Source of the DNA: Winogradskyella epiphytica
GTDB taxonomy: Bacteria; Bacteroidota; Bacteroidia; Flavobacteriales; Flavobacteriaceae
Assembly (NCBI RefSeq): GCF_003217215.1
Contig: NZ_QJTD01000001.1
Location: 868,001-932,000, forward strand
DNA length: 64,000 nucleotides
Direction: 5' to 3'
Both the position numbers and the translations under genes were made by a program. Below, piece after piece: positions 56,046 through 59,084 of the stretch. The notes beneath the pieces are model-generated. The model did not search any database and was not told the origin of the DNA. It saw nothing but the letters and a program-made list of their open reading frames with translations. Every line of letters begins with the position of its first letter. Position 1 is the first letter of the stretch.

Positions 56046-56654
56046 ATGGCTTTCGAATTACCGAAATTGAAATATGCATATGATGCTTTAGAACCACATA
56101 TTGATGCTCGTACAATGGAGATTCATCATTCTAAGCACCATCAAGGATACACTAACAATCTTAATGCTGCAATAAAAGGAACAGATTTAGATGGAAAAAC
56201 TATAGAAAACATTCTTATTAACTTAGATATGGATAATAAGGCTGTTAGAAATAATGGTGGCGGATTTTATAATCACTCATTATTTTGGGAAGTTATGAAT
56301 CCAGAAGGAAAAGGACGTTTATCTGGAGAGTTAAAAGATGCTATTGAGGCAGCTTACGGTTCTTTTGATGCCTTTAAAGATGCTTTTTCTAAAGCAGCGG
56401 CTACACAGTTTGGTTCTGGTTGGGCATGGCTATGTGTGCACAAAGGTGGAAAAGTTGAAGTTTGTTCTTCTGCAAACCAAGATAACCCATTAATGCCAGG
56501 AATTGGTTGTGGTGGTACACCTATCTTAGGTTTAGATGTATGGGAGCATGCTTATTATTTAAATTACCAAAACAGAAGACCAGATTATATTGAAGCTTTC
56601 TTTAATGTAATTAACTGGAATGAAGTTGAAAGACGTTATGCTGAAGCAAAATAA
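56046..56654 (+). CDS. sodA: Superoxide dismutase [Mn/Fe]
   Basis: Dismutates superoxide to peroxide and oxygen in the cytosol. Metal ligands: the first histidine in [13 protein letters not shown], the second in FYNHSLFW, and Asp/His in [19 protein letters not shown]. The NNGGGFYNH and SSANQDNPL contexts have the glycine and glutamine seen in Mn-type enzymes, so Mn or cambialistic use is more likely than strict Fe. 202 residues. Own promoter and terminator; divergent from the AddA-like gene. Confidence 0.96.
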
Positions 56655-56673: not shown

Positions 56674-56707
56674 AAAAATCCGAGTCTTAAAAGGCTCGGA
56701 TTTTTTT
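56674..56707 (+). terminator. Terminator after sodA
   Basis: An 11-bp stem (56674-56684 with 56695-56705), extended by two inner pairs, and a run of seven T. Confidence 0.9.
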
Positions 56708-56761
56708 ATGCCTTAAAATCAATTCATAATAAAATGAGAGGCCTACTTTTGTAGATATAAA

Positions 56762-56836
56762 ATGAAAAAGGATGAACTAGATGTTCATCCTTTTTGCCCC
56801 AAATCTACCATAAACTTAACCTACTTATGTTATGGT
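56762..56836 (-). ncRNA. Putative small RNA, copy A of a tandem pair
   Basis: This copy and copy B share a near-identical 43-base block. On the minus strand the order is: -7 element TATATTTG (56841-56848), 4 bases, ACCATAAC (start at 56836), a 7-bp stem (ACCATAA with TTATGGT), a G-rich single-stranded GATTTGGGGC, then a perfect 8-bp stem (56770-56777 with 56783-56790) extended by A5/T5, ending in a T-run. This gives a transcript of about 75 nt with an intrinsic terminator. Minus orientation is favoured because both copies have a -7-like element at the same distance. The plus strand also contains a 32-codon frame, which I consider accidental. It lies in the 531-bp gap 56655-57185, where I see nothing else. 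Confidence 0.5.
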
Positions 56837-56998
56837 GGCTCAAATATAAGTGGACCATAAGTTAAATAATGAATTTTATGGATAAACGACGTATTTATTA
56901 GTCTAAGAGTGAAAAGTGACGTTTTTCATACAAAACTAAGATGAAGAGCTTTGTTGAGTAAGGAGTGATCTAATGCACTAATACTTAATAATAGAGCA

Positions 56999-57072
56999 TA
57001 AAAAAAGGTGAACAGAAGTTCACCTTTTTTTGCCCCAAATCTACCATGAACTTAACCTACTTATGTTATGGT
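56999..57072 (-). ncRNA. Putative small RNA, copy B of a tandem pair
   Basis: Same structure as copy A, 236 bases away. The shared block differs by one base (a G-U instead of an A-U pair in the first stem). The terminator stem has a different sequence but the same place and form (7 bp, 57007-57013 with 57018-57024, extended by A7/T7), which is compensatory change in a hairpin. The -7-like element TACATTGG (57077-57084) sits at the same 4-base distance from ACCATAAC as in copy A but is a weaker match. It may be less expressed or differently regulated. Confidence 0.5.
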
Positions 57073-57185
57073 AGTACCAATGTATATTTAATTTATTAAA
57101 TAACATGCAAATAATAGATGAAATGCATAAATCTTTGATAATGAGCTTGCTTTTTCGGACAAAGTGTTTTTTTGCCAATTTAAAT

Positions 57186-59084
57186 CTAATAAGCTCTTTC
57201 GTTTTTACCTTCATAAAAATTAATAAAGGCTCTGTTAACAACTCTGTTTCCTCCAGCTGTTGGATAGTCACCTGTAAAATACCAGTCACCTAAATTATCC
57301 GGACAAGCCTTATGTAAGTTTTCTACTGGTTGAAAAATGATTTTCACCTCGGCGTTTATATCTTCACTACTTAACATTTCTGAAATTTTATCAGAAATTT
57401 GCTCATTTGTAAAGTTGGAGTAAATTTCCTTGACGTAGTTTACGACATTCTTATCTTTCATATTGACCTGTTTCAGGCATTTCTCGTAAACTTCTTCTAC
57501 AATATGATATAGGTTGTTGTCTTTCAATAATTCTAATGCTGCTCTGAAAGCAACAAGAGTATCAAGGTTGGCCATATCAATTCCGTAACAGTCAATATAA
57601 CGTATTTGAGGAGCAGAAGAAACCACGACTATTTTCTTTGGGTTTAATCGGTCCATCATTTTAATAATACTTTTCTTAAGCGTTGTACCTCTTACAATAC
57701 TATCATCGATAATTACTAAATTATCTTTTGGTTTAATAACGCCGTAAGTAACATCGTAAACATGCGCTACTAAATCATCTCTACTACTATCTTCAGTAAT
57801 AAAGGTTCTAAGTTTAACATCTTTAATTGCTATTTTTTCTATTCTTGGTCTTTCTGCTAAAATTTCCGTAACCCTTTCAGCAGATAGTTTACCGTTTCCT
57901 GCAAGAATAGAGTTTGTTTTCTTTTCATTTAGGTAGTCTTCAATAGTTTCAATCATTCCAAAAAATGACGTTTCTGCCGTATTAGGAATATATGAAAATA
58001 CTGAATTTTTGGTATCATAGTCTATGGCTTCAAGAACTTTAGGCATTATCAGTCTTCCTAGCATTTTTCGTTCTTTGTAGATTTCAGCATCACTACCACG
58101 CGAAAAATAGACGCGTTCGAAAGAACAGGCTTTTCGTTCTAAAGGCTCTAAAATTTTCTTTATTTTAGTTTCTCCAGATTTCTTAGTAATGATAGCGTGG
58201 CCTGGTTTTAATTCTTTTACGGATTCAAATGGAATATTAAAAACAGTTTGAATTACCGGACGCTCTGAAGCAACTACAACAATTTCATCATCTTTATAAT
58301 AATAAGTTGGTCGAATTCCAGAAGGGTCTCTTAATACAAAAGAATCACCATGACCCAATAAGCCAGCCATTGCATAACCACCATCCCAGTTTTTTGCAGC
58401 TCTTTTTAAGATTTTAGCAACATTTAAACGCTCTGCAATTAAAGGTGAGCATTCCACTTTACTATAACCTTCTTTTTTAAGGTCTTTATAAATTTTACCA
58501 ACGGAATCATCTAAAAAATGTCCGATTTTTTCCATAACAGTAACGGTGTCAGCTTTCTCTTTTGGATGTTGACCAATTCTTATGAGGTCATCAAAAAGTT
58601 CATTGACATTCGTCATATTAAAATTACCAGCGACAATTAAATTTCTGTGCATCCAATTGTTTTGTCTTAAAAACGGATGAACACTTTCTACGCTGTTTTT
58701 ACCAAAAGTTCCATAACGAACATGCCCTAATAATACTTCTCCTATATATGGAATGTTCTGTTTTTGTAAGGCAACATCATCTTGGTAATGCGGATTCTTA
58801 GTCAACTCATCGTTTATGCGTTCGTTGATTTGAGCAAAAATATCTTGTATAGGTTGCTGTGCAATAGATCGTACTCTACTTATATAGCGCTCACCAGGTT
58901 TAACGTCTAATTTAATACTTGCAAATCCAGCACCATCTTGACCGCGATTATGCTGTTTTTCCATCATTAAATACATTTTATTAACACCATAAAAAGCACT
59001 ACCATACTTTTCCTTGTAGTATTCTAATGGTTTTAAAAGTCTAATAAGTGCAATTCCGCACTCATGTTTTAAAGCGTCACTCAT
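57186..59084 (-). CDS. purF: Amidophosphoribosyltransferase-type glutamine amidotransferase
   Basis: First committed step of purine synthesis: PRPP and glutamine give 5-phosphoribosylamine. The N-terminal nucleophile glutaminase has its cysteine at position 9 (HECGIAL), so an 8-residue propeptide must be removed. QHNRGQDGAGF is the conserved glutaminase motif, and the PRPP site NLVIIDDSIVRGTTLKKSI is complete. 632 residues, longer than E. coli PurF (505), with a C-terminal extension ending WYFTGDYPTAGGNRVVNRAF that looks like a Bacteroidota feature. Lies downstream of the PfkB kinase on the minus strand, with a terminator between. Confidence 0.9.
   Translation of the reverse strand: MSDALKHECGIALIRLLKPLEYYKEKYGSAFYGVNKMYLMMEKQHNRGQDGAGFASIKLDVKPGERYISRVRSIAQQPIQDIFAQINERINDELTKNPHYQDDVALQKQNIPYIGEVLLGHVRYGTFGKNSVESVHPFLRQNNWMHRNLIVAGNFNMTNVNELFDDLIRIGQHPKEKADTVTVMEKIGHFLDDSVGKIYKDLKKEGYSKVECSPLIAERLNVAKILKRAAKNWDGGYAMAGLLGHGDSFVLRDPSGIRPTYYYKDDEIVVVASERPVIQTVFNIPFESVKELKPGHAIITKKSGETKIKKILEPLERKACSFERVYFSRGSDAEIYKERKMLGRLIMPKVLEAIDYDTKNSVFSYIPNTAETSFFGMIETIEDYLNEKKTNSILAGNGKLSAERVTEILAERPRIEKIAIKDVKLRTFITEDSSRDDLVAHVYDVTYGVIKPKDNLVIIDDSIVRGTTLKKSIIKMMDRLNPKKIVVVSSAPQIRYIDCYGIDMANLDTLVAFRAALELLKDNNLYHIVEEVYEKCLKQVNMKDKNVVNYVKEIYSNFTNEQISDKISEMLSSEDINAEVKIIFQPVENLHKACPDNLGDWYFTGDYPTAGGNRVVNRAFINFYEGKNERAY

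Follow-up and report, generated by a model that had tools for sequence, protein, structure and literature searches.

Analysis of the region between sodA and purF of Winogradskyella epiphytica revealed two near-identical elements on the minus strand which, judged by their sequence, are almost certainly tandem small RNA (sRNA) genes. The two sRNAs are predicted to control the mRNAs of exported proteins by base-pairing in trans, a reading to which we assign a probability of about three in four. Repression is the likely sign of this control because the start codon would be covered. To our knowledge, little is known about posttranscriptional control in the Flavobacteriaceae, which are abundant polymer degraders and fish pathogens. 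A first-pass annotation of the window (the whole stretch of 64,000 nucleotides that was analyzed) had proposed duplicated minus-strand sRNA genes with a G-rich patch facing C-rich leaders. Both proposals are borne out at the sequence level, the latter by CCCAAA leaders. Added here are the hairpin loop as a predicted second seed on start codons, the synteny of the locus across the family, and a set of predicted targets that are mostly of exported type and often have an upstream box in common with the sRNAs.

The gap between sodA and purF comprises 531 bp and harbors both copies, whose starts lie 236 bp apart (Table 1). Copies A and B are 90% identical across 58 nt and have a common 45-nt core with a single T/C difference, in agreement with the repeat described before. 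On the minus strand, each -7 box ends 4 nt before ACCATAAC, exactly as annotated earlier, and is followed by a 5' stem-loop, the single-stranded stretch GATTTGGGGC, and a hairpin with a T-run. The predicted RNAs have the form of a small RNA and are slightly shorter (72 and 73 nt) than the 74 to 75 nt given in the first-pass annotation. Their predicted folds reach -20.1 kcal/mol (z = -4.2) and -27.6 kcal/mol (z = -5.7), each better than 200 of 200 dinucleotide shuffles. The arms of the terminator hairpins are fully complementary within each copy and differ in sequence between the copies. An intergenic position, an own promoter, and an intrinsic terminator, as expected of a trans-acting sRNA, are thus all predicted for both elements.

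Table 1. Positions in the window of the predicted sRNA genes, their parts, and the flanking genes.
Feature	Positions	Strand	Basis or remark
Predicted sRNA gene copy A, T type (...GTTTATGG...)	56765..56836	-	72 nt, ACC to end of T-run
Predicted sRNA gene copy B, C type (...GTTCATGG...)	57000..57072	-	73 nt, ACC to end of T-run
-7 box of copy A, TATATTTG	56841..56848	-	Sequence; TAnnTTTG type
-7 box of copy B, TACATTGG	57077..57084	-	Sequence; TAnnTTGG type
Seed 1 of copy A: hairpin loop CATAAGTAGGTT, complement of AACCTACTTATG	56818..56829	-	Exact complement match
Seed 1 of copy B: hairpin loop	57054..57065	-	Exact complement match
Seed 2 of copy A: single-stranded TTTGGGGC, complement of GCCCCAAA	56796..56803	-	Fold and leaders
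Seed 2 of copy B: single-stranded	57032..57039	-	Fold and leaders
Terminator hairpin of copy A, T-runs on both strands	56765..56795	-	Inspection and family comparison
Terminator hairpin of copy B, T-runs on both strands	57000..57031	-	Inspection and family comparison
Upstream box of copy A, TTTATCC	56880..56886	-	Sequence; position kept in other genomes
Weaker upstream box of copy A, TTAGACT	56900-56906	-	20 bp upstream of the TTTATCC box
Upstream box of copy B, TTTCATC	57117..57123	-	Sequence; position kept in other genomes
sodA (Fe/Mn superoxide dismutase)	56046..56654	+	Pfam superoxide dismutase domains
purF (amidophosphoribosyltransferase)	57186..59084	-	Pfam glutamine amidotransferase domains; name from the first-pass annotation and motifs

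The hairpins carry T-runs on both strands and both neighboring genes read toward them, so that the repeats might represent terminators and conserved DNA between the convergent sodA and purF genes, without any RNA gene. This explanation is extremely improbable, since a separate hairpin belonging to sodA lies at 56674-56705, apart from the sRNA hairpins, the -7 boxes lie at a fixed distance, and the core shows a conservation that a terminator would not require. For a 32-aa ORF at 56762, plus-strand coding was considered and set aside because the ORF spans the terminator, the length of which varies between species. The Rfam scan proposed in the first-pass annotation was performed on the locus with 4227 families, and none matched at the gathering score; permissive matches (STnc, mir, and similar) lay on or around the terminator and were taken as chance.

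The distribution of the tandem sRNA genes was determined by BLAST in 60 genomes, comprising the genome itself, 36 others from its genus, and 23 from other families of its order. All 36 genomes of the genus contained matches, one of them (G022) solely at the second locus described below. Short matches of 20 to 34 nt were present in 4 of the 23 genomes from other families, and none of these 23 had a full-length match. A search for the block in related genomes had been proposed as a check in the first-pass annotation, and the block does recur: at an E value of ≤1e-4, matches were present in 312 of the 397 genomes of the Flavobacteriaceae and in 193 of the 237 genera, mostly at two places per genome, which is a lower bound since at most two candidates were scored in each. 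A scan of named genomes yielded at least 117 stretches with the sRNA from Flavobacterium, Aquimarina, Algibacter, Lacinutrix, Salinimicrobium, Aequorivita, and others; these were selected by AGTAGGTTAAGNNNNTGGTAGATTTGGG, which therefore cannot vary in them. Among the matches listed, each stretch held one to five copies, and sodA and/or purF were found within the same stretch in 107 of 117 cases (both genes in 61, neither in 10), where a short protein motif at any position of the stretch sufficed to assign a neighbor; the stretches covered ≤8 kb, and some were clipped at the edge. Some Flavobacterium loci (L106, L191, and L194) contain four or five tandem copies. Both copies are present in 29 of 30 Winogradskyella loci, which places the repeat far beyond chance; the order is C type and then T type in 28 of these 29 and T type twice in the remaining one.

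Comparison of 192 distinct copies with their promoters, all with a CATAAG loop, selected by ATAAGTAGG and leaving out Flavobacterium-type copies, showed that the first 46 nt come in just 13 versions, two of which cover 167 copies. The -7 box of T-type copies reads TAnnTTTG in 65 of 77 cases. The 114 C-type copies carry TAnnTTGG (40 copies), TTAG (26), TTTG (25), TTCG (4), or other forms (19). The -7 types of the two copies persist across genera. Different use of the two copies, proposed in the first-pass annotation, is merely hinted at by these differing -7 types, which suggest that the promoters are used differently. Motif SM5 of F. psychrophilum is given as TAnnTTGY in the excerpted text of PMC9723704; the TTGG box of C-type copies has the same TA-TTG spacing and differs in the last base. 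Different sigma use by the C-type copies is only a thought. Further boxes recur at about -50 and about -70 from the RNA start upstream of both types.

Selection on RNA form had also been claimed. This holds for the terminator: all 262 distinct 3' regions (40 nt) fold into a hairpin of at least 8 pairs followed by a T-run, with 65 different 5' arms. It is not supported for the 5' stem, which is paired in 92.9% of cells among 42 diverse sequences with one both-sided change; covariation in these 42 sequences was not above that of shuffles, and the stem is nearly invariant. A diverged single-copy sRNA-like element, ACCAGAACTTAAGTAGGTTAAGATCTGGTAGATTTGGG, was observed at L044 (G028:C58:97681-97718); its 5' stem is altered on both sides and compensated (ACCAGA/TCTGGT), and its loop is kept. 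This is a single case.

Inspection of other matches near gene starts revealed CTTAACCTACTTATG, which is complementary to the sRNA loop and includes the start codon. The loop CATAAGTAGGTT is complementary to AACCTACTTATG including the start codon, and the G-rich patch is complementary to CCCAAA. The pattern AACCTACTTATGA, whose final A keeps the sRNA genes themselves out, gave 50 matches in 29 of 41 Winogradskyella genomes, and the reversed pattern gave 10. All 50 were inspected; an ORF with a length of 40 aa or more begins at 46 of them and at none of the other 4. The 46 leaders precede a membrane-type protein of 56 to 59 aa (T1, 15 leaders), a lipoprotein-like protein of about 126 aa (T2, 9 leaders), a lipoprotein-like protein with a CAP domain (T3, 13 leaders; PF00188, E = 2.4e-10), a secreted-type protein of 244 to 290 aa whose named relatives are all Winogradskyella hypothetical proteins (T4, 6 leaders), and other proteins (3 leaders), one of which is a PorP/SprF protein (PF11751, E = 1e-66). 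The second seed match, CCCAAA within 40 nt upstream, played no part in picking these leaders and was found in 33 of the 46, which represent few gene families of one genus and are not independent, compared to 2 of 161 control leaders, which came from the window and from loci that had in part been retrieved via sRNA matches.

The distance from the C run to the ATG is 15 to 36 nt in 69 leaders. A -7 box is readable in 24 of these and begins 9 to 12 nt before the C run, so that the mRNA 5' end would be at or near CCC. Computed duplex energies for 29 leaders, preselected by seed 1, were equaled by 0 to 5 of 100 shuffles. By sequence, complementarity to the translation initiation regions of several unlinked mRNAs is conserved, with the exception of exact matches in Flavobacterium (see below). 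Two Winogradskyella genomes (L240:1304-1326 minus; L242:1249-1266 plus) also have a loop-seed complement, TTAACCTACTTAAGTTAT, between genes recognized by eye as apparent gldK and gldL, where a link to type IX secretion is possible. At L235-L239, TTTTGCCCCAAATCTTAAATCTTAACC follows directly after the gene of an apparent type IX-secreted protein, convergent with hisS (both named by eye), and is possibly a 3' untranslated region site or a sponge.

In the W. epiphytica genome itself, the exact sequence AACCTACTTATG occurs three times; two of these occurrences are the complements of the sRNA genes, and the third is located where the T1 ortholog begins (MENNILGGLVIF). In the T3 ortholog, which shares 65% identity, the leader reads TCCCAAACC...AACCTACATTATG and is longer by one base. 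For the duplexes with the leaders of these T1 and T3 orthologs, 0 to 6 of 200 shuffles were as good. Taken singly and with two mismatches allowed, neither seed was enriched in this genome over its reversed control (419 versus 505 matches for seed 1 and 46 versus 54 for seed 2).

The leader pattern extends across the family in the form CCCAAA, 0 to 25 nt, and ACCTACTTATG, mostly followed by ORFs with exported-type N termini. The search pattern CCCAAAN{0,25}ACCTACTTATGA gave 54 matches in 47 of 397 genomes and 36 genera. The reversed pattern gave 1 match, and a permuted seed with the ATGA retained (CTACCATT) gave 3 matches in the same 397 genomes. All 54 were inspected; 52 precede ORFs of at least 60 aa. 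According to a home-made hydrophobicity test, which 15 of 50 ORFs of at least 120 aa in the window also pass (the 50 may include spurious ORFs), 49 of these 52 have an exported-type N terminus; 22 have a lipobox-like motif. The 5 leaders without an exported-type ORF of at least 60 aa comprise 3 that precede cytoplasmic-looking and 2 that precede short ORFs. One of the 3 permuted-seed matches also begins a lipoprotein-like ORF, which indicates that a little chance background is present. A recurrent predicted target is a lipoprotein-like protein of at least about 300 aa with the sequence ...SCSKDTDLL..., which was seen in several genera (L407, L409, L410, L422, L424, L305, L306, and L323).

All 47 genomes with the leader carry the sRNA, as matched by eye from the two lists (hypergeometric P = 5e-6, to which the often small size of the sRNA-less genomes may contribute). 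The exact leader was found in just these 47 of the 312 sRNA-bearing genomes; the other 265 had no exact leader, mismatched leaders not being counted across the family. This scarcity, together with a core that hardly varies in stem and loop (the 13 versions among 192 CATAAG-loop copies), would suit sRNAs that are real and mainly bind a protein, in the manner of 6S or CsrB, with the leader matches being secondary. Such a role is unlikely, because sequestration predicts no joint complementarity of two sRNA stretches at start codons, as found here in 54 matches versus 1 and 3 in the controls. The leader motif could instead be the site of an RNA- or DNA-binding protein, the complement of which is held by the sRNA locus as a decoy or otherwise; its position in promoter-proximal leaders beside a common box would fit. 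If it were a protein site, both places should carry the motif in the same sense, whereas the sRNA has the exact reverse complement of both halves, on a strand fixed by the terminators and -7 boxes, which makes this alternative very unlikely. Control by base-pairing in trans remains the preferred reading.

The pairing model was confronted with the loop of Flavobacterium. Among 77 copies from 42 loci with Flavobacterium titles (sorted by hand), the loop reads CATT (CATTAG) in 55, CATA (CATAAG) in 5, and otherwise in 17; outside Flavobacterium, CATA was found in 102, CATT in 7, and others in 2 copies. In the 397-genome sample, the CATTAG loop occurs in just two genomes, both of genus g147. Pairing with a CATTAG loop predicts AACCTACTAATG leaders in Flavobacterium. 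The leader CCCAAA...ACCTACTAATGA gave 2 matches (control, 0) in 150 genomes of that genus, one before a long ORF of exported-type appearance and one before a 9-aa ORF. A leader search free of the start codon gave 131 matches versus about 115 in the control (hand tallies), and 0 of 30 inspected were located at a start codon. Compensatory leaders are therefore nearly absent from Flavobacterium by exact-match and start-codon-free searches, which weighs against universality of the pairing model; either Flavobacterium uses the sRNA otherwise or the targets have diverged there.

In Winogradskyella, BLAST of the sRNA also revealed a further locus, at which the match lies antisense to a small ORF flanked by genes encoding an ABC transporter ATPase and a CoA-transferase. 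The ORF belongs to a family of 39 to 42 aa that is present in 18 of 20 retrieved stretches; the exceptions are L044, which represents another locus, and L047, which did not pass the ORF rule. The conserved peptide, MKTKSNLPEPTLNEN...LKLTKKIFML, is encoded at L038:2125-2250 minus (G000:C1, about 748124-748249) and in L039-L057. Its leader and first codons contain several sites complementary to the sRNA, with TTTTGCCCCAAATCTACCATAAACTTA-like sites in the leader and CCAAATCTACCAGAACCTACTT in the first codons. The computed duplex with the sRNA reaches -54.4 kcal/mol in L041. In the W. epiphytica genome, copy A reaches -41.5 kcal/mol (equaled by 0 of 200 shuffles) and copy B reaches -32.7 kcal/mol (7 of 200). 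With the strongest and longest duplexes, at several sites, formed with the peptide mRNA, the sRNAs might be the antitoxins of this 41-aa peptide in a type I toxin-antitoxin system. We consider this highly improbable: the sRNA is family-wide, whereas the named ones among 38 database matches of the peptide, many of which are unnamed, are all from Winogradskyella; the peptide gene lies about 177 kb from the sRNA genes; and the seeds are common to other mRNAs.

Analysis of the regions upstream of the predicted targets of base-pairing revealed the box [AG]TCGA[AT]T at -130 to -40 from the start codon in 34 of the 46 target leaders and in 4 of the 161 controls. Measured from the C run in 69 leaders, the box peaks at -55 to -57 (23 leaders) and -99 to -100 (14 leaders). 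Fuller forms in the targets are ACCGTTCGTCGAATAAAT and GCATTTCATCGAATAAAT; the forms in the sRNA promoters are GTTTATCCAAAAATT, GCATTTCATCTA, and CCGTTCGTCTAAAAAAT. The excerpts of PMC4064291 and PMC6193735 describe the AlgR core site as CCGTTCGTC and LytTR sites as direct repeats about 12 bp apart. The target box ACCGTTCGTCGAATAAAT resembles this AlgR core, and the boxes step by about 21 bp here; compared with the LytTR regulons of these excerpts, the resemblance is one of motif only. A LytTR activator common to the sRNAs and their targets, acting in a feed-forward manner, is put forward as a tentative possibility with odds somewhat below even.

The proposed mechanism is as follows. The loop CATAAGTAGGTT would pair with AACCTACTTATG and thereby cover the start codon. 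Near the putative 5' end of the mRNA, the single-stranded TTTGGGGC would pair with the C-rich beginning of the leader. The short leader (15 to 36 nt from C run to ATG) would be held at both points, and ribosomes could then not load. The LytTR-like upstream box would switch on the sRNAs together with many of their targets, forming an incoherent feed-forward loop, and two copies with different -7 boxes may provide extra dose or timing. This entire scheme, in which a two-point clamp (loop on the AUG and G patch on the leader 5' end) and a LytTR-type promoter code for sRNAs and exported targets constitute an incoherent feed-forward loop over the flavobacterial cell surface, is possible and falls a little short of even odds.

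In the main texts of the open-licence literature, supplements aside, no paper recognizably dealing with this sRNA was found, and the 28-nt core string was absent from the texts searched. According to the excerpts of PMC3634460, OmrA and OmrB are similar sRNAs with tandem genes that regulate outer membrane proteins via mRNA 5' regions, are controlled by the two-component regulator OmpR, and have only the 5' 21 nt in common. Tandem similar sRNAs and (predicted) surface protein mRNAs are found here as well; in contrast to that description, the common core here spans 45 nt and holds two predicted seeds, one of them in the loop, and OmpR is set against a box that is only LytTR-like. The likeness is one of logic only, and no sequence relation to OmrA/OmrB was detected, with no Rfam match at the gathering score. 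FopS (RF04319) of Bacteroides is described in the excerpts of PMC11697453 as multicopy sRNAs with a single-stranded 5' stretch and a terminator, encoded in 12 to 15 dispersed copies and binding near the start codons of susC mRNAs. Common to both are multicopy sRNAs of Bacteroidota with a terminator hairpin and surface protein mRNA starts as targets (predicted here); compared with the FopS of that text, the present sRNAs differ by a 5' hairpin with a predicted loop seed and by mostly two tandem copies. FopS was the only Bacteroidota sRNA model that appeared under permissive Rfam settings, and its covariance model scored 22.8 and 23.2 bits, below the gathering threshold of 56. By analogy, the sRNA pair may work like OmrA/OmrB and FopS, and we file it under neither.

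The Rfp sRNAs (e.g., Rfp18 and Rfp11) are likewise conserved flavobacterial sRNAs. As described in the excerpted text of PMC9723704, deletion of Rfp18 in F. psychrophilum lowered two metalloprotease mRNAs, and a third stem-loop is presented as the pairing site, in contrast to the two hairpins found here. One of the 85 new Rfp RNAs of that paper may, as far as the excerpts go, be identical to this sRNA.

These results provide a syntenic sRNA locus that occurs in the majority of the family, together with predicted targets open to individual testing. The target grammar CCCAAA ... AACCTACTTATG names candidate exported proteins. If the proposed pairing is true, it also illustrates how translation could be blocked by an sRNA in bacteria lacking Shine-Dalgarno sites, namely, with the start codon and the leader front covered at the same time.
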